This document shows positions 9,764 to 52,493 of a stretch of DNA of 64,000 nt, piece by piece. How positions within the stretch are numbered: position 1 is the first letter of the stretch; each line of letters begins with the position of its first letter. The DNA comes from Candidatus Eisenbacteria bacterium (GTDB lineage Bacteria; Eisenbacteria; RBG-16-71-46), in NCBI GenBank assembly GCA_020847735.1, contig JADLBL010000023.1, positions 208,495-272,494 of the forward strand. Reading direction: 5' to 3'. Under the pieces are notes generated by a model that saw only the letters and a list, made by a program, of their open reading frames with translations, ran no database searches and was not told the origin of the DNA. The position numbers and the translations under genes were made by a program.

Positions 9764-9838
9764 GCCTCGGGGCGCGTCCCGCGTGGTAGTCTGGCGCGCG
9801 AGTTCCCACCCGCGAACGCCCCGAGAGCCCTTCGAGTC

Positions 9839-16658: not shown

Positions 16659-16860
16659 CGGAGGGCGCCGGCGGCCCCCCCGGGGCGCGGCCGCGCCGCG
16701 GAATTCCCTCGCCAACTTTCGGGACGCGCTCCTAATCTTTATGTGACGAAGTCGTCAGGCAAGCAGTTCCTCCTGATGAACCGACACGTTCGCGCCCGCT
16801 CCGCGGCCTCCCCCCGAGCTGTCGTCCGTGCGCCCTTCGACCCATCCCGGAGGTGCCGGC

Positions 16861-31800: not shown

Positions 31801-31947
31801 GTGAGCCAGCCCCTGGACGCGAAGCGGCTCGAGGCCGGCAGCCACGTCGTGGACATCACCCGGCTGCCGCGGGGCGCGAGCGTTTACTTCTATCGGCTGC
31901 GGGCCGGGGACTACGAAAAGACCCGCCGCATGGTCCTCATCCCGTAG
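16861..31947 (+). CDS. Giant secreted surface protein: seven beta-helix units, Ig-like, seven CARDB, type IX-type C-terminal domain
   Basis: 5028 residues. ATG 16861 has GGAGGT six bases upstream and opens a signal peptide ending PAYA. Seven ~370-420-residue beta-helix units follow, each opening GTYTIGAGGDYATFAAAT-like and closing TPDIGADEF-like, at residues ~36, 404, 776, 1148, 1522, 1902 and 2278. Next are about five Ig-like modules (2700-3160; ATDNLTPG, DGPHSFRV), one Fn3-like, then seven CARDB modules (~3258-4155; LVVTNVTAPPTATSGQPIVV). Later parts: a pre-peptidase-like domain, a TIG-like domain, a domain opening RVDFENLPGVASAPAQVVRI, an Fn3-like module and the sorting domain (LLHQNFPNPFRAGTRVRFDL). 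Right-handed beta-helices usually bind or cut polysaccharide; no catalytic residues were identified, so adhesion is an equal possibility. TAATCT at 16733-16738 is a candidate -10. Confidence 0.9.
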   Translation: MLAHALVRTRPGSVRAVPAMLSALLLAAAGPAYAQLSGTYTIGAGGDYATFAAATTALQAQGVSGPVTFSVLPGFYNEQVVIPGISGSSVTNRVTFQSALDAPPTVILQWSPPTGSEPTVELNGASWVTLRRLTIVGTTDVGPTSAVRISGTAEGTVLSGCVLRSSTLTGGAAVTIESGTSLTDVEVSDCMLGPAGSGLLSTETQFLDCRILRNRFLSTMGLILDDWQGGAGALLIANNFFPNSQVAIYPGPSSGGLQFVFNSIFRDVTGDGLVISGSGPNGLAVVKNNIIRAEGAGYAYLVSDTAMIAESDYNDLSAGGVAVLANWAGTNCTTLSALQAAGGKEAHSISVPPSFAGATDLHTATAALDGAGSPIAGVAEDIDGELRDPVTPDIGADEFTAVTGLAGTYTVGAGGDYATIAAATADLSSKGVSGPTTFDVLSGTYAGQVNLAPVPGASPANRVTFRSQSGNAADVTLQFDPVSTAQGVIQIADADYLTISTLTLQVTQGSGYGSGLTLQGVTQGVRIESCVINGLASNGTGVRVSSGVHDSLVIRQNTIPMGGNGIALFAATYTGVRVERNLIGTMGQWAIELAGWTGPPTGAVRIANNVVQNGGILIQQNAGTSRGVEILHNSVSRATAAPVLSVSTSGGTSSNAISILNNVFSNIGDGVVLNVGDPTAIAASDHNSLHTTGAVLASWGGSNHGSLAELRATSGKDLASIEGFPGFIDAALHTRSSFLNAAAQPLAGVTEDFDGDPRDPATPDIGADEFATPYTPLAGTYTVGSGAQYNNLTSAAADLLLRGVSGPVTFDLFSQTFPEQLKFYSPIGVSATNRVTFRSQTGDAASVTVNFNPNSTAGGVVHLSGADYVTLSDLTLQAGGAGVGSGVAIAGGTVGVRVQRCVITGMQTSGYGVLFASNSKADSAEVSGNTIAASNRGVFANGPTLTGVRITGNSIRDASNAGITISSWTGPASGSVRIANNMLSNADIELALVSTSLGAECAHNTLYIRSLSDALTLIASNTLPGTMRIQNNIFACEGGGRPLVSNQAIPSGVCDYNALYTTGAVLTSIVANLSQTLAEHQAANAIDLNSVSFHPGLASATDLHTTLSALDGRGTPVASVATDFDGQPRDPSTPDIGADEFAPGSPLFTGTYTIGAGGDYATFAAATSDLLLRGVTGPVTFAVLPGTYTERVIVRAAGGMSPANRLTFESQNGSRSDVTVQYNTASTIQGVFELQGASWTSVRNLTLRVTQASGSGSGVRLTGFVESAAIQGCAMTGLQASGYGVNLSLGRADSLRVTDNLVDSGVRGINLETVTLRGVQVLRNSFMNGGASSVYVRGWDGPAGGALLIANNWMSSPLVLYTSGPGSVGVEAYHNSISITSATYDAFALSTLSGSPPVGAVKLKNNVVASFAGGRALSVTSPALLAECDYNDYFTAHTTLATASSVNYADLAAWRAFSGFDAHSLEVHPGFVDVVDDLHTASSFLDGLGAPVTGVTEDFDGQTRSASAPDIGADEFTAVAPIATGAYTVGAGGDYPTPTAMLDDLYQRGVAGPVTFQLLTGTYTGQWKLQTPAGASAANPVTFRSQTGNASDVILEYASLSTATGIVEFRGADHVSIADLTLRKTGGLTPSCGVYISGRSTTSTIEGCTLAALGLSGIGINIASGGAAESLLVSRNTVTGVGNGLYGNTGVTVTGVRVLRNWFDVASSTGLPIHFQNWIGPATGSLYIANNFFTGNGRVLLSQGPASAGVEFNFNSVNVSNINGALSLLVASGAPPAGSVRLRNNIFQNRNVTGPALTVANGAAVAVSDHNNFYKPSGGTLASWSLSTVSTLAALQSVSLQDAQSVSGDPLFTSLTDLHTSASLLAGAGTPVAGITDDFDGQPRDPATPDIGADENTPAGPPLAGTYTIGAGGSYLSFAAAVSDLETRGVFAPVTFNVLPGAYPEQVTLNSIPGASPASRVTFRSLTGNAADATLQFANNLSSSGVLQLSGVSHVSFRDLTIAMSGPPNAAGAAVYLTNSAVAVWITNCVLAGSSSSGRGLLAAGATLDSVLIEGNRFPLTGESMNLSGNLSGVRVMGNVLEGVSNPASGGLVVSGWTGPATGALLIANNFCIGNAWINVIQTAGSNGLEVYHNSVRTTGSLDAFTLTISGSAPANSVRVMDNVFACTGTGRPLVVALPSVIAVSDYNDLHTVGGPVLTRWGGSNYATLAAHRAGSGQDAHSVSGDPQFTSASDLHASAALLSGAGTPLAAVPTDIDGETRSLNAPDIGADEFALAAPLAGDYTVGTAGDYATPAAAAADLTLRGVSGPVNFLIQSGTYDGTVTLTTIAGAGPGARVRFASQSGAAGDVVLRASAANSDGSDAVLRLAGARYVDVEAVTLRSTVPGASGTLAWLASATDNDRFLGCTLDLALGGLYGIYGFSAVMDSLVVRNCTFSMPSGSSYGYGVSAAGFSTAHGAVIEGNDFTGGLTGIYWVPSLASNGMIVRDNTCTMGSSGTGFLLSFLNGGEVTGNRIASDGYGMNLQYMDGSTLVANNFVQASGYGFFLQSPASIRLYHNSVNHTGATGSAVHVSPSALGAVTLVDNVLAATGGGYALSVNGPPSHIALSNYNDLYVTGPTLARFNFTDYPTLADLRAGTGFEAQSASANPSFVSATDLHAQAAALDGAGTPLAEVTTDIDGEPRSLTAPDIGADEFAILDGVPPVVTFEAGPADNAVLFGDTASYAWSATDNLTPGDSITYRSALDAPFSGAYGYETSRSLAGLTDGPHSFRVEARDLAGGISAPIARTLRVHRTAPDVAFDSPAAGAFTGAAVGVTWHMIARSLVSNPDSIFFSSRLDSGAFSPPLRDSSAALSGLAEGPHSVEVRVTDEAGLANTRSRAFTVDLTAPTVSITSGPPEGGYSPAGVAFTFSSTDNLTPAVQMRYSYRLDGGAFTPPSTTAGANYADLGPGPHTLGVRAHDAADNVSAEVARQWTVDLSPPETQIAGGPADGDTLGSNSVTFDFTGTDNLTPLASLRFQARLDGAGFDAASAATSRNYSGVPDGPHSFQVRAVDLAGLPDGTPAARTFTVDAQGPAVLIASGPANNACVDTADVAYAWSATDAVTPPAQIEFSYQLDATPFTAYGPDTSASFTSLAEGLHTFTLQARDGSGHVTSVTRSIRVDVSAPVAAAPTTRVLDSSRIRIQCTASDNSGVTGFRVQVSTDPAFGSLAADVQIGASGTHDFIGVPGSSYYARSQASDCAGNLTAFTGPSNVAILASLPNLVVTNVTAPPTATSGQPIVVDYTVANNGAGPTSTPSWWESVWLSPTPTYDAQTAVLLGQRQNVTFLGVGESYTGSVTGTVPLGTSGTRYVLATADGGDAVPETDGTDNTSASGAVAVVLGAVADLVVTQVVAPPTALSGETVTVSWTVRNGGAGRTDASQWYDAVFLSTDATFDFDVLGGQSIRATDDWLARTQHTGVLEADSSYTASLQVTLPPYFGGTRYLIVASDMNASTDNQSVGERGLVFEDQQEINATAGAATEVTQQLPPDLRVDALTTNGQPVSGGGLQASFTVGNHGFNATGAGAWTDQLWLSADSLLDVADVLLGSYPQSGNLDLDASYSRNVVVNLPKGISGPRWLIAKLDVYGQLVEYLESNNVTPLAQPVNVALSPWPNLAPVAVSVSDTVLAGGSGTAQWQVSNAGTGSVAAAFTDNVELGTGAIWTSSARVSGSQRANHVLQPAESYSASATFNVPASYAGTYWVFARTDAQNEVFEHTDEGDNIVAIGTVYVKPYPAIDLGVTNVSGPAAASGGGPLPVSYSVANGGQGATLAGWWPEEVWLSSDTSFNPAQDHQVATPGHAGALAAGAGYARDVSGTVPQGLNGAYHVIVRSDPGGASGDGALANNTAVSAGTVLVTSPAPPQLTVSGVTVAANLDAGQPALVGWQVNNGGAGAVPNSEWYVGAYLSQDPWLDGSDVSLGSVAGPAALGGGSSAPQQLTATMPGWASGAYYVIVRADNRGEVWEAGAENDNAATAPTTLTLPPPSDLVVTDVLVPPAAVPGEPITVTYTLANQGANPAVGQLQNAVFMSSDSAFISSVDPLVGVEIVNINLPPGGSQRFTARASARPLQVDLDGNVTGTLPPLSPGSYHAIVRANIRDNIRESDGANNQTISAAQVLTDLPALSLGIPAAFDLADGQARFWKVSVPADFDLELTLSSDVADATNEMFTAFARTPDENEWDFSGPAGFTANPVVLVPQTQAGTYYLMVVARDLGQVASLEHLTLLAETLPFSITSHAPTAGGAGGRVTMRVRGAGLRDTTEFRLEQSGVVKARARLAKFTNSTDVLARFDLTGVAEGLYDLVAANGLTTVVIPGGFSVEPARPVEVAIETDNADVLRRSATAPFTVRLRNPSNQDAPVVRARVLFPATSALRSLEADPGLFPASALVPSLTPVAGDAAVLHRAGGGDSLLAVEVVGANLAPGESRALTLGVSGFDSSPYSIRVLADATTVIAFLDRQQAAHEAARRALLSDPAGLPADLVALAGDAFAFRDTSLINTYVRPGMLAASDVEDYLFIIDHLVLPSPDFALPAGPQTLLDELAAGGPCGGAGVVPECAPDVAVPGTALPACVSVFDAADLPVPVAVADGRVARVTGGTAAGFSVTASANARVVVPCDPNLMTGPAGFGTEKWVRGAAPMPYRVDFENLPGVASAPAQVVRITVPIDPNLDLTTFRVGSMGFGGTHQINVPGGRTSYSAQNGYADLGLAVRVTAGINLQTREASWVFTTIDPATGQQPTNPYIGFLPVNNQFGDGTGFVTYSIQPYANAVSGGTVQAQASIQFDVNTPMPTNMAMNRVDTRLPSSAALTGIEQLDASRVRVHWTGSDDSTGAGLANVTLYVRQDVGAFTPVAPPTSGTSLEVPVADGHTFGFYTLAADNVGNAEVTKSDPEAAVTVGSPQLGTDNGPPRVTLLHQNFPNPFRAGTRVRFDLARDETVTLDIFDVQGRLVSQPLDAKRLEAGSHVVDITRLPRGASVYFYRLRAGDYEKTRRMVLIP
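16966..24954 (+). repeat. Seven tandem units coding for beta-helix domains, about 1.1 kb each
   Basis: Unit starts are near 16966, 18070, 19188, 20300, 21424, 22564 and 23692, giving spacings of about 1.10-1.14 kb; the seventh runs about 1.26 kb. Every unit closes with codons for DIGADE(F/N). Units are clearly homologous at protein level but diverged at DNA level, so this is an old expansion, not a recent duplication or an assembly artefact. Confidence 0.85.
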
Positions 31948-38207: not shown

Positions 38208-38867
38208 ATGGCACTCGAGAAGCTCCGCCACGGGCCGTGGCTTCCGGCCCTCGCCCTGCTGTGGGCGTGCGGCTGCCCGGGCACCGCCTTCGCGGGCCCT
38301 TCCGCGGCCGAACGCGCGGACATGGGCGTCTCGCTCGCGATGAGCGGCGAGCTCTCACGCGCCGAGTCGCTGTTCGTGTCCATGCTCTCGGACACGCGCG
38401 GCGATGCGCGCGCGCTCAACAACCTCGGGAACCTGAAGCTGCTGTCGGGCGACCTCGGCGTCGCGCTCGCGTTCTACGATCGTGCCGCGCGGGGCGACTC
38501 CGCCGACGCCGGCATCCAGCTCAATCGCGCGACCGCGCTGCTGCTGATGGGCGACGACGCGCGCGCGAACGAGGCGGCGGCGGCCGGCGTGCGCCTCGCG
38601 GGCGGGCTCGAGCAGGCGCAGACGCTGCTCGGCCTGAAGAGCGACGCGCCGGCCGGGCGCGCCGACAAGAAGGCGTTCGTCAACCGTGGCGAGATCCGGG
38701 CAATGCTGAAGAACGCCGCCGCGGGAGTGCCGAACGCGGCGCCGAAGCCCGCCGCGGGCACCGGGGCCGCGACCGCGAAGCCGAAGAGCGGAACCGCGTG
38801 GCGCTCCGCCGGACCCCGGGCCGCGGACCAGAGCGACGCGGCCAACGTGCTGTACTGGAAGCACTGA
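38208..38867 (+). CDS. Small secreted TPR protein
   Basis: 219 residues; GAAGGAGA lies 6-13 bases before ATG 38208. A signal peptide (LPALALLWACGCPGTAFA) precedes about three TPR units: RADMGVSLAMSGELSRAESL, ARALNNLGNLKLLSGDLGVA, GIQLNRATALLLMGDDARAN. A Pro/Ala/Lys-rich linker leads to a conserved-looking last segment, ANVLYWKH, whose aromatic-basic ending resembles IYRYMFWVER at the end of the upstream PorV fusion. It probably works in the periplasm as a scaffold for the fusion protein or for export, since both are in one operon (81-base gap). Lipidation at the internal CGC is possible but no clear lipobox is seen. Confidence 0.75.
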   Translation: MALEKLRHGPWLPALALLWACGCPGTAFAGPSAAERADMGVSLAMSGELSRAESLFVSMLSDTRGDARALNNLGNLKLLSGDLGVALAFYDRAARGDSADAGIQLNRATALLLMGDDARANEAAAAGVRLAGGLEQAQTLLGLKSDAPAGRADKKAFVNRGEIRAMLKNAAAGVPNAAPKPAAGTGAATAKPKSGTAWRSAGPRAADQSDAANVLYWKH

Positions 38868-38878
38868 CCGCCCAGCCC

Positions 38879-40900
38879 GTGGCCGATCGGATCACGCACC
38901 ACGAACGACTGCCCGTTCGCCTCGGCGCCGCGCTCGGCCTGGGCTGCGCGGCGCTGCTCGGTGTGCTGTGGCTGCTCGGCGCGTTCCACCCCTTCGACCT
39001 GCGCTTTCAGGACGCGCGCTACCGGCTGCGCGGCAACCGCCCGGCCTCGGACCGCATCGCGCTCGTCGAGATTGACGACGCGACGCTCGAGGCGTACCGG
39101 GGCGAATGGCCGCTGCCGCGCTCGACCTACGCCGTCCTGATTGATGCGCTCGAGGGCGCCGGCGCGCAGGCCGTGGGCTTCGACCTGCTGTTTCTCGGCG
39201 AGAATGGCGCCGACCCGCTCAGCGATCGGTTGCTCGCGGCGGTCACCGGATCGCACGAAAACGTCGTGCACGCGATCTCGTTCCTGCGCGACGACGCCTC
39301 GCTGGGAGGGCAGGAGGCCGGCAGCGCCGCGGCGCGCGCGGCGCTCATCCGTCATGGCCGACCCGTGACCCGCCAGCGTCTGCCCCTCGCGCGGCAGGTC
39401 TCGCTGCCCTACGAGGCGCTGCTCGAGGCCTCGCCGGGGCTCGGGCACACGGCGGTCGCGGTGGATGGCGACGGCGTCGCGCGGCGCGTGCCGCTGTTCG
39501 CGCGCTTCGGCGAGTGGGCGTATCCGTCGCTCGCGATCCGCCTCGTCGAGGCGGCGGCGCGCGCGGACACGACGCTGCCCCAGTTCGAGCTGGCCGAGGA
39601 CGGAATCCGTCTGCACCGCGGGCACGCGCAGGTGCGCGTGCCGGTGGACGGCGAGGGCTCGGCGTCCATCGTCTTCGCCGGCGATCGCGGTTCGTTCGCC
39701 CACCGCTACCCGCTGCTCCAGGCGCTGCAGTGGTACCGCGACGGGGATTCGACATCGCTGCGGCGCGCCTTCGCGGGCAAGCTGGTGCTGGTCGGAGTGA
39801 CGGCGGTCGAGCAGGTCGCGACCGATCTCGGAGCGACGCCGTTCTCGGCCGCCACACCGCTCGTCTACATTCACGCCAACGCCGTCAACGCCGCGATCGA
39901 AGGCCGATTTCTTGACCGGCTCTCCGGCTGGACGCTGCTGCCGCCGCTGCTGCTCGCCGGCCTGCTGCTCGGCGCCGCGCTCTCGGGGCTGCCGCTCGCG
40001 CGCTCGGCGCTGCTGGCCGGCGGCGCGGTCGTCGCGATCGCCGGGCTCGACATGGGCCTGTTCCTGTTCGCCGACCTCGACGTGCCGCCCACGGCGGCGC
40101 TGCTGCTGCCGCCGCTCGCGTGGATCGTGATCGAGGGCTGGCGGCGCACCCGCGCCGAACAGCACGTGCGCGAACGCGCGAAGGAACTCCAGGTCGCGCG
40201 TGACATCCAGCAGCACCTGCTGCCCGCCGGCCCCCCCGACGTTCCCGGCCTCGACTGCTGGGGAATCAACGTGCCCGCGGAGGCGATCGGCGGCGATTAC
40301 TACGATTGGGTTCCGATCGGCGGGGACCGCCTGGCGGTGGTGGTCGGCGACGTTTCGGGCCACGGCGTGCCCGCGGCGCTGCTGATGAGCCACCTGCGAG
40401 CGTCGTTCCACGCCGAGGCGCGGTCCGGCGTCGCGCCGCGCGACGTGCTGGGAGCCGTGCACGCATCGCTGTGCCGCGCGGCGACGCGCGGCAGGTTCGC
40501 GACGTTCTTCATGGCGCTGCTCCCGCGCGAAGGCCACGAGCTGATCTGGTGCAGCGCCGGCCACAACCCGATGCTGCTCGTGCGCGAGGGCGCGATGGAG
40601 GAACTTGGCGCGACCGGCCTGCCGCTCGCGATGGTCGAGGGCATGGGCTACACCGAAGAGCGGCGCGGATTCCGTCCGGGCGACGTGCTCGTGCTCTACT
40701 CCGACGGCATCCCGGAGGCTCCGAAGGGCAGGGAGTTCTACGGCGAGGAACGGCTCAAGGCCGTGGTCGCCGCGCGCGTCGCCGCGGGGGACGGCGCGGA
40801 GGCGATCGGCCGTGCGCTGCTGGCGGACGTCACCTCCTACGCGGGCGCGGGCCTCACGGCGGACGACGTGACGATCGTGGTGGTGAGGAGGACGGCGTGA
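38879..40900 (+). CDS. CHASE2-domain membrane protein with SpoIIE-type PP2C phosphatase
   Basis: 673 residues from GTG 38879, 11 bases after the TPR gene; the frame is open further upstream but only as overlap. TM1 is about 11-33. A CHASE2 extracytoplasmic sensor follows (FDLRFQDARYRLRG, RIALVEIDDATLEAYRGEW, GAQAVGFDLLF), then about three membrane helices (~340-400). The cytoplasmic C-terminus is a SpoIIE/PP2C serine phosphatase with EAIGGDYYDW, VVVGDVSGHGVPAALLMSHL and LTADDVTIVVV, which supply the metal-binding aspartates. SpoIIE phosphatases dephosphorylate STAS antagonists, and an RsbV/RsbW-like pair lies at 48269-48954. A link is plausible but not proven. Confidence 0.88.
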   Translation: MADRITHHERLPVRLGAALGLGCAALLGVLWLLGAFHPFDLRFQDARYRLRGNRPASDRIALVEIDDATLEAYRGEWPLPRSTYAVLIDALEGAGAQAVGFDLLFLGENGADPLSDRLLAAVTGSHENVVHAISFLRDDASLGGQEAGSAAARAALIRHGRPVTRQRLPLARQVSLPYEALLEASPGLGHTAVAVDGDGVARRVPLFARFGEWAYPSLAIRLVEAAARADTTLPQFELAEDGIRLHRGHAQVRVPVDGEGSASIVFAGDRGSFAHRYPLLQALQWYRDGDSTSLRRAFAGKLVLVGVTAVEQVATDLGATPFSAATPLVYIHANAVNAAIEGRFLDRLSGWTLLPPLLLAGLLLGAALSGLPLARSALLAGGAVVAIAGLDMGLFLFADLDVPPTAALLLPPLAWIVIEGWRRTRAEQHVRERAKELQVARDIQQHLLPAGPPDVPGLDCWGINVPAEAIGGDYYDWVPIGGDRLAVVVGDVSGHGVPAALLMSHLRASFHAEARSGVAPRDVLGAVHASLCRAATRGRFATFFMALLPREGHELIWCSAGHNPMLLVREGAMEELGATGLPLAMVEGMGYTEERRGFRPGDVLVLYSDGIPEAPKGREFYGEERLKAVVAARVAAGDGAEAIGRALLADVTSYAGAGLTADDVTIVVVRRTA

Positions 40901-41321: not shown

Positions 41322-42338
41322 CTATCCCGCGCTCGCCCGCCGGAGCAGCAGGATCTGCCACAGGTCGCGGCGGCTTCGCTGGCGAAGCGGAAGCATCGCG
41401 AGGCAGCCGGTCGGGCCGACCGACTTCTCGAGGTAGGCCATCTCCAGCAGGTTCTCGCGCACGCTGTCGTCCACCGGCACTTCCACGCCGGCGGAGCGGG
41501 CGATGAGCATGCCCTTGGCGCGCAGCGAGAGCTCCAGATGGATGGTCAGCAGGCAGAACAGGTCCGCCACCACCAGCGGCTCGAAGCGCGTGCGGAGCGT
41601 CTCGAGGTAGCGGCCGACGGGGGTCTCGCCCACGGCGCCGTCGAGAATGGATTCGAGCATCTCGACCTCGCCGTCGAAGCCGCCGGCGAGCCAGTCGCGG
41701 GTGGCGCGGTCGCTGTACTCGAAGGCGGCCAGCAGCAGCACGGGGCTGGTCGCGAGCAGGATGGCGGTCGTGACCAGCGGCGTGGCGCTGAGCTGGTTGA
41801 ACGTGGCGTGCACGACGATCGCCAGCACGATGCCGGGCAGGAACGCGAGCATCCCCGCACCCGTCCAGCGGTCCGAAAGCCCCTTGCCGAAGATCGCGAA
41901 CAGGGCCGTCGCGGTGCCGTGCATGATGGCGGTGCCGAGGCCACGGACGAGCCACAGCGCGATCGAAGGGTCGTGCAGTGCGTTCGCGTAGTAGAGGTTT
42001 TCGGCGAGCGCGAACCCGGTGCCGACCGCGAAGCCGACCACGGCCGCGTCCACGACGAACCCGACGCGGTCGGTGCTGACGAGCCAGACGACGAGCAACG
42101 CCTTGAGCACCTCCTCGACGACGGGCGCGGCCCAGGCGCGCAGGATGCCCGAGGGCACGTGCAAGGTGTCGAGCAGCATGCTGTTCGCGCCGAAGGCCGC
42201 CAGCGCGGCCACGACCCCGCCGGCGATGGCCAGCACCAGCAGGGTGCGATGGACGAGCTTGTAGCTGTCCATCAGCCGCAGCCCGAGCAAGAAGACGACG
42301 ACCGGCACGAACCCCGCGAGAAGGCTCCAGAAGTTCAT
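41322..42338 (-). CDS. PrsW-family intramembrane glutamic protease
   Basis: 338 residues with about eight hydrophobic segments in the first 230, then a cytoplasmic-looking helical tail. The PrsW/CPBP motifs are all visible: APVVEEVLKA with Glu75-Glu76 and Lys79, ALAENLYY with Glu113, His140 in IMHGTATALFAIFGKG, and His177 in VVHATFNQL. In Bacillus subtilis PrsW makes the first cut of the anti-sigma factor RsiW, releasing SigW. Here an ECF sigma and anti-sigma pair is 4.5-6 kb upstream on the same strand, which makes a similar job attractive. The start is 2 bases after the peptidase stop, so it is co-expressed with that gene. The C-terminal ~100 residues are not part of the core fold. Confidence 0.85.
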   Translation of the reverse strand: MNFWSLLAGFVPVVVFLLGLRLMDSYKLVHRTLLVLAIAGGVVAALAAFGANSMLLDTLHVPSGILRAWAAPVVEEVLKALLVVWLVSTDRVGFVVDAAVVGFAVGTGFALAENLYYANALHDPSIALWLVRGLGTAIMHGTATALFAIFGKGLSDRWTGAGMLAFLPGIVLAIVVHATFNQLSATPLVTTAILLATSPVLLLAAFEYSDRATRDWLAGGFDGEVEMLESILDGAVGETPVGRYLETLRTRFEPLVVADLFCLLTIHLELSLRAKGMLIARSAGVEVPVDDSVRENLLEMAYLEKSVGPTGCLAMLPLRQRSRRDLWQILLLRRASAG

Positions 42339-42340
42339 CG

Positions 42341-45319
42341 TCAGAGAATCTTCAGCGAAACCATGCCCTCGCGGGAAGGTCTTTCTCCCTTCTCGTACGC
42401 CTGCGCCCAGCCGAACGACAGCGTCAGCGGCGTCTGGGTCAGGAGCTGGAACCGCACGTCCACCTGCGCGCCCGCGTTGGCGAGCCGGCGGCGCGAGGGC
42501 GCGTCGTCGAGGTTGGTGGCGAGCACGCCGCCGAAGAACGACAGGCGAGCCCAGCTCGCGTACAACGCGAGCGTCCCGGCGCGGCGGAAGCGCAGCGCCG
42601 GCAGGTTCCAGTCGAGCATCGTGCGCGCGAAGTTGGTTCCGGCGACGGCGTCGAGGTCGGTGCCGGGGAAGCTGTAGGCGTCGCGGTAGCGCTTGGGCTC
42701 TCCGTGGTCGAGCCAGTTGTTGCCGAAGCCGCCGAAGTAGAAGTTGGCGAACGGCTCCTCGCGCTCGCCGGTGGCGTAGCCGGCCGCGGAGCGCAGCCAC
42801 AGCGACGAGTTGCGCAGCCCCGGCACGGGATGGCCGACCGACAGGCCGCCGTCGGCGAACCAGTAGCCGCGCCACAGCACGGCGCCCTGACGCACGAAGC
42901 GCACGCCGTTCTCGCGCACGCCGCCCCACGCGTCCACGCCCTTCACGAAGTCGGGAGCGCCCATGGAGGTGCGCAGGTTCGTCCAGTGCAGCTCGCTGCC
43001 GCCGGACAGCAGCTGGTCGAAGCCGGCGGACGTCGCGACGTTCTGGTGATCGGGCAGCCGCTCGAGTCCGCCCCAGTGGCTGACGTCCATGGACCATTCC
43101 AGGGATCGCGGCTTGTCGTGGACGAGCGCGCGGTGCCAGGAGAGCGACGTGCCGAAGCCCTTGCGGCTCGTCTTGGTCGGGCCGACGAGGTCGTAGAACG
43201 ACGCGGGGTTCCAGCGCAGCGTGAGCGCGAGGTCGTACCGCTTGTAGCGCGCGGTCAGGTGCAGTCGCTGGTCGTCGGGCACGTCGCGCTGCGGCGTCCA
43301 CGACGCGTCGAGGCCGAACTCGTGGAAGAACAGCGGGTCGGTGAAGTCGGCGTGCCAGCCGACGGCGACCCGGTCCTTGTAGGCGCCGACGATCGGATAC
43401 GCGGTCGTCATCGCGACGTGCGCGATGCCGCTGTACGTCTTCGGAGCCGAGCGCACGGGATCGAGCTGGATCCGGGAGGGGGGCGGCACGGCCCAAGACT
43501 TCAGGACCGGGCGCTTCTCCACGAGCTGCTCGCCGAGAAAGCGGATCGAGCTGACGTCGGTGAGCGGCCGCGGCACGAAGCGCGCGGGCCGGAAGCCCCG
43601 GCCGCTGTAGTGGAAGACCAGCAGCGACTCCTCGCCGGTCGGGACCGGGCGGAAGAAGCCGGTTTCCGAGTTCGAAACCACGTCCATCGAGTCGCGATCG
43701 AGGTCGTAGCGGAAGATGTTCGAGACGCCCGTGTAGTACGAGCTGCCCCACAGCGCGCGACCCGAGGGGTCGAACGTGAAGCCCGCGGGGGGCGCGGTGC
43801 CGAAGTCCCACAGGGTGCGCGAGGCCGTGTCGCCGGCCGCCAGCGAGGCGACGTCGAGCAGGCGCAGCGTCTGGCGGCCGCTGATCTCGGCGAACGACGC
43901 GGCGAGCGTGCGGCCGTCGGGCGAGACGTCGAGGTCGAGGGCGTCGAGCCCGTAGGGCAGCGCCCAGACGAGCTGCCAGTTGCGGTACGGCGCTTCGAGC
44001 CGCACGAACGCCGAGATGCCGTTCAGGTGCCGCACGCCCCACAGCACCCGGTTCGCGCGGTCGAACGCGAGGTCGCCGATGCGCGCGTCGCGGATCAGCA
44101 GCCGGTCGCGGCCGTCCGCCAGGTCGTATTCGCGCAGGTCGCGCCAGTCGTTGTTGTCGGTCGTGTAGTAAAGCCGGCGCGCGGCGGGGTCGAACGCCAG
44201 CGAGGTGACGAAGTAGAGCGCCGGTCCTTTGACCTCCTGCAGCACGCGCTCGGGCCCGCCGTCGAGCGGGATCGCCGCCAGGTGCGCGAGCGCGCCCGGA
44301 TGGAAGACGGCGGCGAGAATGGACCGGCTCACGGTGTCCACGTAGGCGCGCGAGACCGAGCCCAGCGCCAGCGGGGAGAGGTCGCGGTACGCCGTGGTGG
44401 GGTGCTGTCTCACCTGCGCGAGGTTGGCCGTCTGGAACTCGTGTTCGAAGCGGATCCAGTCGCTCCAGGCGTCGTTGAGCGACCTGCCGAACACGTGCCG
44501 GAACTGGCTGGCGAAGTAGCGGCGGCTTCCCGGTCCTCGCCCGACCCACTCCAGCACCTTCTCCGGCGAATATTCCCAGGCCAGCCAGGTCATGAAGCGC
44601 GTGCCGTAAAGATACGAGTTCGCGCCCACCTGGAAGTCCACCCGGGTGCCTTCGGACTCGAGGCCGAGCGGATCGTAGAAATGCGCGCTGTCGCGGACCA
44701 TCGCGCGGAACACCATCTCGTCGTAGGGACCCTGCGCGCGGCCGATTCCGCCGGCCATCCACGTTTCCATGAACGTGGCGATGCCTTCGTGGTACCAGCG
44801 CGGCGCTGCGCGGCGCGGAACGGTGAGGTTGCCGTACAGGATCGTCTCGGGGTGCTCGTCGGTCTCGCGCACCTTGCCGTGGAAGAATCCGCGGTAGAGC
44901 GGGTCCGCGCCGCCCGCTCCATCGAGCGCGAGCACGTGGACGACCTCGTGGTTCATGGTGAAGTGGATGCGCTCGTTGGAGGGACCCGTCTCGTAGACGA
45001 AGCTCGACGGGGCGATGTGCAGCACCATGCTGTTGCGCGGGTTCACCCACACGCCCGCGTTCCCGTAGTCGGTGAAGTCGTCGAGCATCACATTGACCGG
45101 GTCCGAGGGCGTGTAGCCCCAGAGCTTCTTGTGGAAGCGCATGCTGTTCTCGAAGCAGCGCGCGGTGTAGGGCGCGATGAACGACAGCAGCGGGGCCGGG
45201 TAGGTCAGGCGCAGGTCGTCGGCCTCGATCAGCTCCACCTGCGCGCGCGCCGCCGACGCGAGCGCCAGCAGCGGGAGCAGGCAGCAGAGCGCGAACGCGC
45301 GGCGCACCGGGCGGGGCAT
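42341..45319 (-). CDS. Secreted gluzincin-like metallopeptidase with beta-propeller and outer-membrane barrel
   Basis: 992 residues. A signal peptide (LCCLLPLLALASAARA) is followed by a peptidase-MA-like domain: His124-Glu125-x-x-His128 in NHEVVHVLALDG, and WYHEGIATFME with Glu178 as probable third zinc ligand. Residues ~300-620 form TolB/WD40-like propeller blades (VTSLAFDPAARRLYYTTDNN, LDVSPDGRTLAASFAEISG). The C-terminal ~350 residues alternate aromatic and polar positions as in an outer-membrane barrel (LHLTARYKRYDLALTLRWNP) and end in a short strand region finishing KIL. It is likely a surface-anchored protease. Two bases separate it from the PrsW gene. Confidence 0.8.
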   Translation of the reverse strand: MPRPVRRAFALCCLLPLLALASAARAQVELIEADDLRLTYPAPLLSFIAPYTARCFENSMRFHKKLWGYTPSDPVNVMLDDFTDYGNAGVWVNPRNSMVLHIAPSSFVYETGPSNERIHFTMNHEVVHVLALDGAGGADPLYRGFFHGKVRETDEHPETILYGNLTVPRRAAPRWYHEGIATFMETWMAGGIGRAQGPYDEMVFRAMVRDSAHFYDPLGLESEGTRVDFQVGANSYLYGTRFMTWLAWEYSPEKVLEWVGRGPGSRRYFASQFRHVFGRSLNDAWSDWIRFEHEFQTANLAQVRQHPTTAYRDLSPLALGSVSRAYVDTVSRSILAAVFHPGALAHLAAIPLDGGPERVLQEVKGPALYFVTSLAFDPAARRLYYTTDNNDWRDLREYDLADGRDRLLIRDARIGDLAFDRANRVLWGVRHLNGISAFVRLEAPYRNWQLVWALPYGLDALDLDVSPDGRTLAASFAEISGRQTLRLLDVASLAAGDTASRTLWDFGTAPPAGFTFDPSGRALWGSSYYTGVSNIFRYDLDRDSMDVVSNSETGFFRPVPTGEESLLVFHYSGRGFRPARFVPRPLTDVSSIRFLGEQLVEKRPVLKSWAVPPPSRIQLDPVRSAPKTYSGIAHVAMTTAYPIVGAYKDRVAVGWHADFTDPLFFHEFGLDASWTPQRDVPDDQRLHLTARYKRYDLALTLRWNPASFYDLVGPTKTSRKGFGTSLSWHRALVHDKPRSLEWSMDVSHWGGLERLPDHQNVATSAGFDQLLSGGSELHWTNLRTSMGAPDFVKGVDAWGGVRENGVRFVRQGAVLWRGYWFADGGLSVGHPVPGLRNSSLWLRSAAGYATGEREEPFANFYFGGFGNNWLDHGEPKRYRDAYSFPGTDLDAVAGTNFARTMLDWNLPALRFRRAGTLALYASWARLSFFGGVLATNLDDAPSRRRLANAGAQVDVRFQLLTQTPLTLSFGWAQAYEKGERPSREGMVSLKIL

Positions 45320-45426: not shown

Positions 45427-46704
45427 TCAGTTGGCCGTCGAGAACTTGCCGGCGTCGATCATCCTCGCCAGGTCGTTGAAGCGCACCGCCGCGTCGGCCA
45501 TGCGGCTCGCGTCCGTCAGCCGGGCGAACGACGTCGCGCTCCGCGCCAGGTCGCGTACGCGGGCCTCGACGCTGACGAGCTTCGCGGCGTCCGCGGCCTT
45601 CGCCAGGTCGAGCGACGCACGGGCCAGGTCGCGCATGCCGGCGTCCACCGTCGCGGCCTTGTCGGCGCTGCGGCGGCGGGCCAACTCCTCCGCGCGGGCG
45701 GCCACGTCACGGGCCTGCTTCGCCACGTCCGCCTGCTTCGCCGCGTCGGCCGCCTTCTCGAGGTCCCGGGCCTGGGCCGCGACCTCGCTCATGCGTTCGA
45801 GCGCGATGTTGGCGCGGGCGGCATCGGAGCAGCGGGCGAAGGCGTCCGCACGGCTCGCGAACGCGATCATCCGGTCGGCGGAGACGAGCTTCGCGAGATC
45901 CTCGGACCGCGAGAGCGCCGAGGCGGCCTTCGCCACGTCGGCGATCATCTTCTCGGTGTCCACGGACTTGCCGGCGGTCTTCATGCGGGCGAGCTCCTCG
46001 GAGCGGGCGGCCAGGTCACGGGCGCGCTTCGCCGCGTCCACCTGCTTCGCCGCGTCCGCGGACTTCTCGAGGTCGCGGGCCGAAGCGGCCAGCTCCTCGG
46101 CGCGAGCCGCGGTCACGATCATGCGCGAGGCGTCGGAGTAGCGTGCGAACGCTTCCGTGCAACGCGCCAGGTCGGCGAGCTTCTCGGCATCCACGGCCTT
46201 GGCGACGTCCGTCATGCGCGCGAGGTCGAGCGAGGCCTTCGAGAGGTCCGCCACCATCTTGTCCGCGTCCACCATGCGGGCGAAGTCCTTCGCCTTCGCG
46301 AGGGCTTCGGCGCGGCTGGCGACGTCGAGCGCGCGGGCCGACACGTCCGTCAGCTTCGCGGCGTCGGCCGCCTTGCCGACGTCGCGCGCGGCGCGGGCGA
46401 GGTCGGTGGCGCGGGCCTGGGCCGAGACGAAGCGGTCGAGTCCGCCGTCCACGACGGCCTTGCGGAACTCGGCGTCCGTCTGCATGCGGTGGAACAGGTC
46501 GCTCTGGATGAACGCCTGCGTCTGCGGGTCGTTCAGCTCCACGTCGTTCGGGGTGATCTGCTGCGCCTGGTAGCGCTTCGCGGCGCCGATCGTGCCTTCG
46601 GTACCCTTCGGGGGGTAGCCCAGGACGCCCTTCCATGCGAGGAACCCGACGGCGGCTGCCAGGACGATGACCCCGGCGACGATCGAATTGCGATTGCTGG
46701 CCAT
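45427..46704 (-). CDS. Membrane-anchored Ala/Asp/Lys-rich helical protein with three 103-residue repeats
   Basis: 425 residues, not recognised as a known family. One N-terminal membrane segment (SIVAGVIVLAAAVGFLAWKG, residues 7-26) anchors it, with the rest probably periplasmic. A short folded part (QTQAFIQSDLFHRMQTDAEF, ~61-80) leads to three repeats starting at residues 106, 209 and 312, each opening ARD(V/L)(G/E)KxADAAK and spaced by exactly 103 residues. The composition (Ala, Asp, Lys, Arg, Met, no Pro or Gly blocks) predicts continuous helix or coiled coil, roughly 45 nm if fully helical. A GGAGAGGAGG site precedes ATG. It sits between an anti-sigma gene and a secreted protease. It might sequester ligands, span the periplasm, or act as a target of the protease; none is shown. 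Confidence 0.75.
   Translation of the reverse strand: MASNRNSIVAGVIVLAAAVGFLAWKGVLGYPPKGTEGTIGAAKRYQAQQITPNDVELNDPQTQAFIQSDLFHRMQTDAEFRKAVVDGGLDRFVSAQARATDLARAARDVGKAADAAKLTDVSARALDVASRAEALAKAKDFARMVDADKMVADLSKASLDLARMTDVAKAVDAEKLADLARCTEAFARYSDASRMIVTAARAEELAASARDLEKSADAAKQVDAAKRARDLAARSEELARMKTAGKSVDTEKMIADVAKAASALSRSEDLAKLVSADRMIAFASRADAFARCSDAARANIALERMSEVAAQARDLEKAADAAKQADVAKQARDVAARAEELARRRSADKAATVDAGMRDLARASLDLAKAADAAKLVSVEARVRDLARSATSFARLTDASRMADAAVRFNDLARMIDAGKFSTAN
45463..46389 (-). repeat. Three in-frame 309-bp repeats
   Basis: Read on the minus strand the units are 46389-46081, 46080-45772 and 45771-45463. The 103-codon period is exact between all three starts, while the sequences differ clearly (for example ARDLEKSADAAKQVDAAKRA versus ARDLEKAADAAKQADVAKQA). 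The second and third units are the closest pair. Confidence 0.8.
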
Positions 46705-46817
46705 GGATGGACCCTCCTCTCCCTGCGGTTCGTGATCGAACGTTTCTCTGAACGGTGGCCGAAGGAATGACCCGACGCTGCGGCCGAAGTTGGGCGGCGG
46801 GCCCGAAAATGTTCAGG

Positions 46818-47585
46818 TCAGCGGGAGGGGCTCAGCCCGCGCAGCCTGACTTCCCCGGCCGCCAACCGGCCGTCGGGGAGGGTGACGCTCACGCGAACGG
46901 TGGCCTGGGTATCCGGGGCCGTGCCCTCGGCGACGACGAGGGCATTCGCGGGCAGGTTCGCTTCGACTCTGGGGGAAGGCGTGGGGGCGTCCGGGGCGAG
47001 GCTCAAGAGGGCGCCGGACGACAGGGTTTCGAGGACGATCCGGACCGGCGAGTTCCCCGCCTTGATCCGGAGCTGGAAGCCGGTGGCCGAGGGACTCCAG
47101 CGCACGAGCACGGCGCTGTCGCCCGGCCCGATCCGCACCAGGTCCGAAGCGCCCGACATCGCGCCGCTCGCCAGCCCGCCTCCCGCCGGCTGGCCGGCGC
47201 CACGCCAGCTCGCGTAGGCGAAGAACACCGCGACCAGCGCGGCCGCCGCCGGAAGCGCGACCCGCAGCCAGGCGAACGTGGACCGGCGCGGGAGCGTCAG
47301 GGGCTTCGAGGGCCGCGGCGAAGCCGACTGGCCGGTACGCGCCGCGGCGGGCGCCCACGCGGGGGCAGCCCCGCGAACGGCGCGCAGTACCTCGTCCCGC
47401 AGGCCGGCCGGTGGCTCCGCCGCCCGGACGCCCGCGAGCGCCTGGAACACCCTCGAGAGCTCGTCGTACCGCCCGCGGGCGGCCGGGTCCGCGGCCATGC
47501 GCGACTCGAGCCGTTCGCGCTCGGCCGCGCTCGCGTCGCCTTCCAGCGTCCGCTGGATCAGATCGTCGAGGAGTTCGTCGCTCAC
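46818..47585 (-). CDS. Transmembrane anti-sigma factor (no zinc motif)
   Basis: 255 residues from GTG 47585, overlapping the sigma-factor stop (GTGA). The N-terminal ~70 residues are the typical small helical anti-sigma region, DDLIQRTLEGDASAAERERL then ESRMAADPAARGRYDEL, lacking the HxxxCxxC zinc motif of ZAS proteins. A basic linker, one membrane segment (LRVALPAAAALVAVFFAYAS, ~107-127) and a ~120-residue periplasmic domain with beta strands follow. It should hold the adjacent ECF sigma at the membrane until a signal leads to proteolysis or release. The PrsW-like protease downstream is a candidate releasing enzyme. Confidence 0.85.
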   Translation of the reverse strand: MSDELLDDLIQRTLEGDASAAERERLESRMAADPAARGRYDELSRVFQALAGVRAAEPPAGLRDEVLRAVRGAAPAWAPAAARTGQSASPRPSKPLTLPRRSTFAWLRVALPAAAALVAVFFAYASWRGAGQPAGGGLASGAMSGASDLVRIGPGDSAVLVRWSPSATGFQLRIKAGNSPVRIVLETLSSGALLSLAPDAPTPSPRVEANLPANALVVAEGTAPDTQATVRVSVTLPDGRLAAGEVRLRGLSPSR

Positions 47586-48115
47586 GACTCGACTCCCATG
47601 GCGGCGAGAATCTCGCCGAGCCGGGTGCGGGCCGAGAACAGGCGCGACTTGACGGTCTTCGCCGGAACGTGCAGCGCGTCGGCGATCTCGTCGTACGACA
47701 GGTCGAGCCAGTGCCTCAGCACGATGACCTCCCGATAGGTGTCCGACAGCTGGTCCACCGCGCGCTCGAGGAGCGCGGACTGCTCACTTCGTTCGGCCTG
47801 CTCGGCCGGGCTGTGCCCCCGGTCCACGAGGTTCTCGTCGAGCGGCTCGGCCTTCCTGCGCCGGGTCGCCCGGTTCAGCGCTTCGTTGACCGCGATCCGG
47901 TACAGCCACGAGAAGAACCGCCGGTTGCGGTCGAACTGGTCCAGGTGCTGCCAGGCTTTCACGAAGACGTTCTGAGTGGCGTCCCGGGCTTCCTCGCGGT
48001 CCCGCAGCATGCGCAGGGCGACGTTGAAGAGCGGCCGCTCGTAGCGGCCCACCAGTTCGCCGAAGGCCTCGGTGTCGCCCGAAAGGCACCTCTGGACCAG
48101 TGCTTCGTCGTCCAT
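47582..48115 (-). CDS. ECF-type RNA polymerase sigma factor
   Basis: 177 residues from ATG 48115 (the frame is open to 48232 but that part is low-complexity). Region 2 reads DDEALVQRCLSGDTEAFGEL, with MLRDREEARDATQNVFVKAW as the core-binding and -10-recognising part. Region 4 reads LSDTYREVIVLRHWLDLSYD and IADALHVPAKTVKSRLF, the -35-binding helix-turn-helix. The two are joined by a short charged linker without region 3. It is coupled to its anti-sigma factor by a 4-base overlap. Probably autoregulated, though I could not identify its own promoter. Confidence 0.93.
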   Translation of the reverse strand: MDDEALVQRCLSGDTEAFGELVGRYERPLFNVALRMLRDREEARDATQNVFVKAWQHLDQFDRNRRFFSWLYRIAVNEALNRATRRRKAEPLDENLVDRGHSPAEQAERSEQSALLERAVDQLSDTYREVIVLRHWLDLSYDEIADALHVPAKTVKSRLFSARTRLGEILAAMGVES

Positions 48116-48268
48116 CAATACACGCCTGTCCGCCCGGAAGTTGGGCGCTGGGGGGAGTTCGGTCCGCAGGGACCGGGCAGTCCGGGCACGACGGGGCGGG
48201 GGCCGGGGCGGGCCCGGGCGGCATATCGCCACACGGGAAAACGCTTTCGGGCGCCTCGGGGGGCGGCG

Positions 48269-48553
48269 CTACTGAATGTCGAGGACCTTGTCGAGGCCCG
48301 CGTAGGCGAACACGTTTCGCACCCGCGGGGTCATTCCGGTCATGCGCAGCGAGGAACCCTGGCCGTTCAGGCGTTTCCAGGTCTGCATGACCACGCTGAT
48401 TCCGGCGCTCGAGATGTATTCGAGCTGGCTGCAGTCCAGCGTCAGGGGCCCGGCGAGCTTCTCGAGCGTCGCCAGCGCCCGATCGGACTCCGCCGCATCG
48501 AGGCGCCCCTGCACCTTCACGAGCCCGCCTTCTTCGATCCGCAACTCGAGCAC
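48269..48553 (-). CDS. STAS-domain anti-sigma factor antagonist (RsbV/SpoIIAA-like)
   Basis: 94 residues from GTG 48553, which shares one base with the upstream kinase stop (TAGTG). The motif LDCSQLEYISSAGISVVMQT contains the serine that is phosphorylated in RsbV/SpoIIAA proteins (DxxYxxSAG type). Partner-switching logic: when unphosphorylated it binds the RsbW-like kinase encoded just upstream. The longer frame to 48625 runs through the kinase C-terminus and is not needed. A SpoIIE-type phosphatase that could reactivate it is encoded at 38879-40900. Confidence 0.9.
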   Translation of the reverse strand: MLELRIEEGGLVKVQGRLDAAESDRALATLEKLAGPLTLDCSQLEYISSAGISVVMQTWKRLNGQGSSLRMTGMTPRVRNVFAYAGLDKVLDIQ

Positions 48554-48954
48554 TAGTCGGTCACTCCCATGACGACGAGCGTCGTTCCCACGCCGTCGCT
48601 CCACTCGTAACGAAAGATGTGGCAAAGCTCGCGGACGAAATGTATCCCCAGGCCGCCCGGCCGTCGCTCCTCGATCGGCAGGTGCACGTTCACGCGCGGC
48701 GCCGCGGTCGGATCGAAGGGTGAGGGCTCGGCGGCACGCAGACGGATACGGAGCTCCCCCGGCGCGCGGGAAAGCTCCACTTCGACATCGCCAGCGCCAC
48801 GACCGTGCCGGACGAGGTTCGTGAAAAGCTCCTCGAGCACGAGATCCACGTCGAAGGCGGCATCCTCCGACATCTTCTCGGCCGCGAGGAACTCGCGCAC
48901 GAACCCGACCAGCTCGGCGAGCGAATCCATTCGACGCGGTACGGCCCGGACCAT
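48553..48954 (-). CDS. RsbW-like anti-sigma serine kinase (GHKL ATPase)
   Basis: 133 residues from ATG 48954 (ATG 48930 is an alternative). HATPase fold: N-box VDLVLEELFTNLVRHGRGAG, then RRPGGLGIHFVRELC as the ATP lid and G-box, and DGVGTTLVVMG at the end. Proteins of this size phosphorylate a STAS partner and bind a sigma or other effector. It is co-transcribed with the STAS gene by a 1-base overlap. Whether its target is the ECF sigma 150 bases downstream or another factor is unknown, because ECF factors are not the usual RsbW clients. Confidence 0.88.
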   Translation of the reverse strand: MVRAVPRRMDSLAELVGFVREFLAAEKMSEDAAFDVDLVLEELFTNLVRHGRGAGDVEVELSRAPGELRIRLRAAEPSPFDPTAAPRVNVHLPIEERRPGGLGIHFVRELCHIFRYEWSDGVGTTLVVMGVTD

Positions 48955-51038: not shown

Positions 51039-51968
51039 TCAGGGCTTCTTCACCGCGCGAACCTTGATCGAGACGACGGCCCCGAACGCCTCGCGCTCCT
51101 CGCTGCCTTCCGGATACGAGTCCGCGCCGATGTCGTAACCGGTCCGCTCGACCACCTGCACGTCGCCGAATCCGGCCTCGCGCACGAACCGCAGGTATTC
51201 CGCTTCGGACGAAGCGCCCGCGACGCAGCCCACGTACAGCTCGGCGTTGCGCCGGACGCCGGGGCCCGGCTCCCGCGTCAGCACCAGGTCGCTCACCACG
51301 AGCCGGCCGCCCGGGCGGAGCACGCGCAGCGCTTCACGGAACACCCGCGGTTTGTCGGGCGAAAGGTTGACGACGCAGTTCGAGATCACCACGTCCACGC
51401 TCGCGTCGGCGAGGGGCAGGTGTTCGATCTCGCCGAGCCGGAACTCGACGTTGCCCGCACCCAGCTTCGTTCCGAGGGCGCGCGAGCGCTCGATCATCGC
51501 GGGCGTCATGTCCACGCCGATCGCGCGGCCCGTCGGACCCACCTCGCGCGCGGCGAGGAAGCAGTCGATGCCGGCCCCCGAGCCCAGGTCGAGCACGGTC
51601 TCGCCGGGCTGGAGCGCCGCGTGCGCGATCGGATTGCCGCAGCCGAGCCCGAGGTTCGCGCCCTCGGGGATCGCCGCCGCCTGTTCGGCCGTGTAGCCGA
51701 GCCTCGCGAGCGCGGCTTCGGCGTCGCCGGGGGCCGCGCAGCCGCCGCCGCCGCAGCCGCAGGCCTCGCCCTTCGCGGCGGCGCCGTAGCGTTCGCGCAC
51801 GAGGGTGCGAATGTCGGAGTTCTCCGGGGCGTCGGTCGTGGTCGGCGCGGCCGCGGACCCGCCGGCGGCGGGCAGGGGATCGCAGCAGCGATCCGCGGAC
51901 GTCGTCGGGGCGCAGCAGGGAGAGGCGGGGGCGGTGGCCGGAGGCGGGTTCTTCGTGTCGGTGCTCAT
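51039..51968 (-). CDS. arsM: Arsenite S-adenosylmethionine methyltransferase ArsM
   Basis: 309 residues from ATG 51968, chosen because GAGGAG lies eight bases upstream; GTG 51977 would overlap the arsR stop. Class I methyltransferase core: TVLDLGSGAGIDCFLAA for SAM, then ISNCVVNLSPDKPRVFREAL. Family cysteines are present at Cys110 (GLGCGNP), Cys188 (SNCVVN) and Cys228 (VGCVAGA). Methylates As(III) to di- and trimethyl forms, a resistance or volatilisation step. Before the core there are extra Cys pairs (18-19, 28-29) and CGCGGGGC at 70-77, possible As(III)-loading sites. Co-transcribed with the ArsR-type gene. Confidence 0.95.
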   Translation of the reverse strand: MSTDTKNPPPATAPASPCCAPTTSADRCCDPLPAAGGSAAAPTTTDAPENSDIRTLVRERYGAAAKGEACGCGGGGCAAPGDAEAALARLGYTAEQAAAIPEGANLGLGCGNPIAHAALQPGETVLDLGSGAGIDCFLAAREVGPTGRAIGVDMTPAMIERSRALGTKLGAGNVEFRLGEIEHLPLADASVDVVISNCVVNLSPDKPRVFREALRVLRPGGRLVVSDLVLTREPGPGVRRNAELYVGCVAGASSEAEYLRFVREAGFGDVQVVERTGYDIGADSYPEGSEEREAFGAVVSIKVRAVKKP

Positions 51969-51973
51969 CGCGT

Positions 51974-52291
51974 TCACTCCTCGGAAGTGGGCAGCTCGTT
52001 CACGAGCTTGCGGAAGCGCTTCAGCGTTTTCGGATTCAGGCAGTAGCAGACCCGCGGGCCGTCGATCTCGCCCTGCACCAGGCCGGCGTTCTTCAGCACC
52101 TTCAGGTGCTGCGAGACGGTGGCCTGGGCCAGCGGAAGGGCGCTCACGATCTGTCCGCAGATGCAGGTTCCTTCCGCGGCGAGCTGCCTCAGGATCGCGA
52201 CGCGCGCCGGGTGACCGAGCGCCTTCGCGAACACGGCCAGCTCTTCGTCGGCCGCGGCGATCGGCGCCCTCGCGGATCGGGTGGTGGTCAT
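51974..52291 (-). CDS. arsR: ArsR/SmtB-family metalloid-responsive repressor
   Basis: 105 residues from ATG 52291, with GGAGGAA ten bases upstream; ATGs at 52354 and 52327 lie in or close to the likely operator and are disfavoured. Winged helix: [37 protein letters not shown] (recognition helix) and [16 protein letters not shown] (wing). CxC pairs at Cys43/Cys45 (TCICG) and Cys82/Cys84 (CYC) are the probable As(III) ligands. It should leave the DNA when arsenite binds, releasing arsR-arsM. The stop is 5 bases before the arsM start. Confidence 0.92.
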
Positions 52292-52349
52292 GGCCTTCGG
52301 TTCCTCCGGGTTCAGCGAAGTCGGCGTCATGGCGGCCGCACGATCATCG

Positions 52350-52371
52350 TTCATCGGCAATCTACGATGAA
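52350..52371 (-). promoter_or_regulatory. Candidate ArsR operator
   Basis: Perfect inverted repeat TTCATCG-N8-CGATGAA, 59 bases upstream of the arsR start. CGATCATCG directly beside it (52341-52349) repeats the half-site. Position and symmetry fit a dimeric ArsR repressor site; binding is not shown. Confidence 0.5.
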
Positions 52372-52493
52372 GGGACGAGATTCGTCCAGGGACTTTGCTC
52401 GCCGGACGCAAGACCTTGCCCGGGCCTGACAGACGCGGGGCCTGCGCGGCGCGGGCCGCGGGAGGCGCGGGCGGACCGCGCGAATCCCCGGCA

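Follow-up and report, generated by a model that had tools for sequence, protein, structure and literature searches.

The window analyzed here, a 64,000-nucleotide stretch of a Candidatus Eisenbacteria genome, contains on its minus strand an open reading frame (45427..46704, ATG start) encoding a repeat protein of 425 aa, designated REP. A transmembrane anchor is predicted at residues 6-26 (46627..46689, minus strand; hydropathy 2.06), where the N-terminal hydrophobic segment peaks, in agreement with the membrane anchoring proposed in an earlier sequence-only reading of this DNA; we infer that the short N-terminus lies inside. The position of the anchor is conserved in alignment A1, which covers the first ~95 residues of REP and by which the REP family was defined. 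It is followed by a conserved juxtamembrane motif, KGTEGTIGAAKRYQAQQITPNDVEL (residues 33-57; 46534..46608, minus strand), identified in A1, with I39, G40, A42, D54 and V55 invariant in 15 sequences of this alignment. Next come four degenerate 9-residue units (residues 59-94; 46423..46530, minus strand; DPQTQAFIQ/SDLFHRMQT/DAEFRKAVV/DGGLDRFVS), recognized from A1 and by lag analysis, within which F71 and F80 are conserved nine residues apart. These first ~94 residues constitute the conserved part of the protein. Searches of Pfam, NCBIfam and PDB sequences with REP gave only chance-level matches, so the earlier statement that no family could be recognized was correct; REP carries no Pfam or NCBIfam domain, and hence no projecting functional end domain was found.

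Outside the conserved part, repeat analysis delimited three units of 103 residues, all on the minus strand: residues 106-208 (46081..46389), 209-311 (45772..46080) and 312-414 (45463..45771), which open with ARDVGKAADAAK, ARDLEKSADAAK and ARDLEKAADAAK, respectively. Self-comparison of REP at a lag of 103 revealed 42.3% identity over 227 positions, against a mean of 13.5% and a maximum of 22% in 2000 shuffles, and the repeat starting at residues 106, 209 and 312, noted from the sequence earlier, is therefore real. Identity drops to 8% at lag 102 and to 14% at lag 104, which indicates that no slippage has occurred in the 103-residue register. An inner repeat, overlooked in the sequence-only reading, was detected at lag 26 (29% identity, shuffle maximum 20%), and each 103-residue unit splits into four subunits of ~26 residues (26+26+26+25). 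For the motif D..[KR] we counted 27 occurrences against an expected 6.8, and none of 2000 shuffles exceeded 14; the charge, Asp and Lys/Arg spectra each peak at 6.45 residues (103/16 = 6.44), and the dominant hydrophobic period is 3.22 (103/32), with a power of 40 compared with a 95% shuffle limit of 8.4. The 103-residue period thus seems to be the beat arising from a charge ladder with 6/7-residue steps rather than an independent domain size. The argument that a length which is no multiple of 7 or 11 points to a folded bundle fails, because 103 equals 16 units of 6.44. A heptad or hendecad coiled-coil rod (period 3.5 or 3.67) was also considered for the window protein and is ruled out by the hydrophobic period of 3.22.

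The composition of REP (0% Pro, 1.2% Gly, 29% Ala) fits the helical character originally proposed for it, as does a single-sequence AlphaFold2 model, which is all-helical but weak (pLDDT 58, pTM 0.42), its best segments being helices with pLDDT 84-87. A Foldseek search with this model gave no match below E 1.3.

The copies within the window gene share 50-60% nucleotide identity. Taking the codon usage of each gene as the baseline, we asked how often repeated residues share a codon; in the window gene, identical codons at shared residues numbered 31, 22 and 30, against 30.5, 23.2 and 25.8 expected. An excess of identical codons was likewise absent from many relatives (L024, L054, L056, L059, L090). 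Codon sharing was above chance in L047, L050, L051, L053, L087, L091 and L095, and z values of 4-5 in L047, L087, L091 and L095 show that the test is able to detect recent duplication. Recent DNA duplication of the window copies, with same-residue codons at chance, was rejected. Since residues repeat strongly while codons stand at chance, the repeats are kept at the protein level in the window gene and in similar relatives; judged by this synonymous saturation, the window copies are old, and residues rather than DNA have been retained.

A single-sequence search with the window REP identified relatives in 16 of 59 related genomes. With A1 the REP N-terminus was found in 16/47 genomes of the class (Candidatus Eisenbacteria) and in 19 of the 347 genomes sampled from the Acidobacteria phylum; REP is also present in MAGs labelled Gemmatimonadetes and Rokuibacteriota. 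The window protein matches the A1 model at 1e-36, being itself a row of A1, and has the family signature, a transmembrane anchor followed by EGTIGAAxRY...DVxL...LQSDxFHK. As defined by this aligned N-terminus, REP is an unnamed family found across several phyla. One contig titled Bifidobacterium breve (L025, 1636-2649) carries sigma and REP genes of this family; its label is surely wrong, and the 9 kb downstream yielded no protease gene. The second REP gene of genome G409 (L089) has no cluster genes nearby, and in an Acidobacteria genome (L091) two REP genes with differing tails (6584-7663 and 8928-9779) occur in one cluster, the first of them between the sigma gene and an anti-sigma match.

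The tails that follow the conserved N-terminus are unrelated and differ in almost every lineage. A 9-residue lag is the majority form, significant (z > 4) in 25 of 38 tails, with units such as DPGFQRALA (L016), SKQAVREAL (L024) and ANPNFQSVL (L092); other tails have lags of 7, 10, 11, 12 or 18, for example AVDAAKA (7), VPTENGKTIL (10), LPDADGGRQIK (11) and VAVDIDAQKRSN (12). The window tail has no 9-residue lag (z = -0.8), and nonamers are confined to residues 59-94. None of the homologues recovered has a 103-residue repeat, the highest other value being 20% in L048, in which 9-mer harmonics are present. The length constraint earlier deduced from the exact period therefore holds within the window REP, whose copies keep register, but not across the family, whose lags and lengths vary, and spacing this variable among homologues removes the structural meaning ascribed to the period.

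Tail lengths range from 93 to 857 aa and their Pro plus Gly content from 0 to 24%, some members being Pro/Gly-rich or Phe-rich; no complete member lacks a tail, and no conserved C-terminal binding module exists across clades. In one genus (G023, G037, G039, G041) the differences in tail length, 66 and 33 residues, are whole 11-residue units, although repeat numbers may be miscounted in draft genomes. A member of the window's own genus (G004) has an LDAKA-type tail, yet its adjoining protease is 66% identical. REP is of more interest than the structural claim about its 103-residue period, since its place in the cluster is conserved and the unit of its tail is replaceable.

The neighbors of REP on the minus strand include genes for a predicted anti-sigma factor with one transmembrane segment by hydropathy (46818..47585), whose identity is weakly supported by an NCBIfam anti-sigma match (E 6.3e-10, below the model cut-off), and an ECF sigma factor (47582..48115, start probably at 48115; Pfam Sigma70_r2 1e-16, r4_2 2.5e-16), which matched the NCBIfam sigma70-ECF model at 4.5e-32 and for which the SigW model (9e-37) was among the best. 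A STAS domain protein resembling RsbV (48269..48625; Pfam STAS_2 1.2e-14) and an RsbW-like HATPase (48553..48954, start probably at 48954; HATPase_c_2 1.4e-17) are encoded on the same strand. On the other side of REP, also on the minus strand, lie genes for a metalloprotease-like envelope protein (42341..45319) with a signal peptide, an HEVVH/WYHEGIA motif and a predicted TolB-like propeller, and for a PrsW-family intramembrane protease (41322..42338; Pfam PF13367, 3.4e-20). A CHASE2-SpoIIE phosphatase gene on the plus strand (38237..40900; SpoIIE 2.2e-48, CHASE2 1.4e-46) may be part of a partner switch. SpoIIE-type phosphatase genes also occur near the cluster in eight Acidobacteria loci (L090, L093, L094, L095, L096, L099, L100, L102).

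The 992-aa metalloprotease-like protein gave no Pfam or NCBIfam match; its predicted class is based on the HExxH signature and downstream Glu (EGxA), which are invariant. An AlphaFold2 model built from 7 sequences was weak and only partly confident; with it Foldseek found a TolB propeller (E 2.6e-11), in a region where pLDDT is mostly about 65-90. Long strands at residues 636-830 of this model only suggest a C-terminal barrel, and no barrel was present among the top 50 PDB matches.

The window gene order (sigma/anti-sigma, REP, metalloprotease, PrsW) matches that of the family. Of 39 loci, 33 have the metalloprotease gene directly after REP on the same strand, usually with the PrsW gene behind it (three of the remaining six loci are cut off by the end of the contig or fetched stretch before the protease position); in L096 and L099 a PrsW homologue is instead located before the sigma gene, on the opposite strand. 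All 16 REP-bearing genomes of the class also have the metalloprotease (Fisher p 3e-9), and three protease-bearing genomes (G018, G019, G029) contain REP-like tails cut at contig ends. In some Acidobacteria the REP-protease order persists although the sigma gene has another location (L093, L094) or could not be detected next to REP (L092, L095). No site-2 protease is encoded in the cluster. As annotated here, the combination of HATPase kinase, STAS protein, SigW-like ECF sigma, anti-sigma, REP, metalloprotease and PrsW is an undescribed one, and our literature search found no paper that links Eisenbacteria, ECF and anti-sigma.

An ECF-type promoter-like site, CAACTT-N15-GTCAT, was found by motif search upstream of the REP operon (46767..46792, minus strand), and a related one with a spacer one base longer, CAACTT-N16-GTATT, upstream of the sigma gene (48117..48143, minus strand). 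The motif AAC[CT]T-N15-GT is present upstream of REP in 17 of 39 regions, against 0.4 expected and 0-4 for other spacings; it was derived from 6-mers enriched in these same upstream regions, so discovery and count share one set. An allied motif lies ~27-42 bases upstream of the aligned sigma start in 22/31 loci (1.0 expected). An exact search of eight genomes for CCAACCT-N15-GTATT revealed five sites (controls zero), four of them before REP and the fifth, in G025, before an ECF sigma gene at a contig end; the single exact match to CCAACTT-N15-GTCAT in the window genome is the REP site. The classical motif AAC-N15-18-CGT was not clearly enriched before REP (6/39 regions versus 3.9). When one mismatch was allowed, scanning the window genome for further regulon members gave 3 sites compared with 2 in the control, and therefore none are claimed. 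On the simplest reading of these sites, the cluster sigma would drive its own gene and the REP operon.

Several known systems resemble parts of this arrangement. In Bacillus subtilis, PrsW is the site-1 protease of RsiW, the anti-sigma factor of SigW (PMC3498285). The window cluster shares with SigW-RsiW-PrsW an ECF sigma near the SigW models, a membrane anti-sigma and a PrsW-family protease, but it adds the HATPase/STAS pair, the HExxH envelope protease and the repeat protein, it has no site-2 protease, and its promoter motif is not alike. The STAS and HATPase_c_2 pair, with a SpoIIE phosphatase nearby in the window, is reminiscent of SigB-type partner switching (RsbU/P-RsbV-RsbW), except that here the pair stands beside an ECF sigma with a membrane anti-sigma of its own. 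Periscope proteins (PMC8201768) are likewise membrane- or wall-anchored, with tandem repeats whose copy number varies between relatives by whole units. REP differs in that lineages replace the very sequence of the unit and that many members, including the window gene, have not retained identity at the DNA level; it is also predicted to be periplasmic, and no projecting functional end domain was found in it. The 9-residue period of most REP relatives recalls RTX nonapeptide repeats; however, the GGxGxD calcium motif was not seen on inspection of the tails read, the units being Phe/Leu-rich (e.g. DPGFQRALA). Group 3 LEA proteins share Ala/Lys/Asp-rich, helical-type repeats with the window REP, whose period is 6.44/26/103, not 11, and which has a membrane anchor and relatives unlike LEA proteins.

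By analogy with the SigW system, the cluster may be an envelope-stress circuit with regulated proteolysis. Our preferred but tentative proposal, which we rate somewhat short of an even chance, is that REP is a tethered periplasmic arm in an ECF/PrsW circuit of this kind that amplifies itself, and that it may be a substrate of the proteases. REP would be a single-pass inner-membrane protein with a repetitive tail projecting into the periplasm, and the first gene of a REP-metalloprotease-PrsW operon that the neighboring SigW-like sigma would turn on along with its own gene. The tail would serve as an envelope-exposed arm and might be sacrificed as a substrate in a relay of regulated proteolysis, in which the exported HExxH protease would handle or cleave it, PrsW would cut the membrane-tethered stumps and/or the anti-sigma, and the freed sigma would yield more REP, metalloprotease and PrsW. 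Several points speak against this proposal: the protease is conserved and its supposed substrate is not, so that the cut would have to be either juxtamembrane, in the conserved part, or unspecific; the cluster lacks a site-2 protease; and in L092-L095 the sigma gene was not found beside REP. The tail would have to be repetitive and accessible without requiring one fixed sequence, which would explain why lineages swap the unit (9, 10, 11 or 12 aa; 26/103 in the window).

The assignment of REP to the output of the response fits nearly as well, and we consider it possible, if doubtful: the ECF response would make a periplasmic repeat polymer (a shield, scaffold or stalk) and an envelope-remodelling metalloprotease, with PrsW providing feedback. 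The location of REP and the protease downstream of a sigma-type promoter, the REP-protease linkage that outlasts the sigma linkage in L092-L095, and the whole-unit length changes of the 11-mer tails are all consistent with such an output; the company of PrsW and anti-sigma in most loci and the absence of a recognized adhesive or enzymatic domain from REP argue against it. The conserved anchor, the repeat-rich tail and the immediate linkage to a gene for a predicted envelope protein could also suggest a tether or ruler across the periplasm that keeps the protease at the inner membrane. This is unlikely: the range of tail lengths rules out a strict ruler, and a common C-terminal binding module is lacking across clades.

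Very unlikely, in our view, is that the tail is a product of replication slippage with little function, i.e. a neutral low-complexity expansion. Whole-unit differences in copy number are as expected of slippage, and the above-chance codon sharing of seven loci is a sign of recent duplication, but in the window gene and the five relatives named with it strongly repeated residues are encoded by codons at chance, so that selection is holding the amino acids, and every complete member has a tail. Least probable of all is a disordered, LEA-like polyampholyte (Ala/Asp/Lys-rich) that protects the envelope on drying. The Ala content of the window protein, its alternation of Asp and Lys/Arg about every 3.2 residues and the weak AlphaFold confidence would agree with this role, against which the helical best segments of the model speak; as the Pro plus Gly range of the family extends to Pro/Gly-rich and Phe-rich members, it is not the family function.

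The tethered-arm proposal can be extended, with more doubt than we attach to either the arm or the output role, to a conserved signaling slot in which repetitiveness itself, not sequence or fold, is selected, REP acting as a lineage-replaceable fuse or antenna in a self-driving ECF/PrsW circuit. These data add a protein family that has no name as yet, together with a regulatory cluster that is conserved across several phyla rich in uncultured members and has a testable promoter. They raise the question of how one operon slot can be kept across phyla with unit length and chemistry changing between close relatives, and with the REP repeats under protein-level selection within lineages. If the tail is truly a sensor or a protease substrate, it would represent a new input module for ECF signaling.

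Inspection of the rest of the window revealed a 5039-aa frame on the plus strand (16828-31947), in which blocks resembling parallel beta-helices and CARDB recur and whose C-terminus has a sorting-type tail, as well as adjoining arsenite methyltransferase-like and ArsR repressor-like genes on the minus strand (51039-52411).
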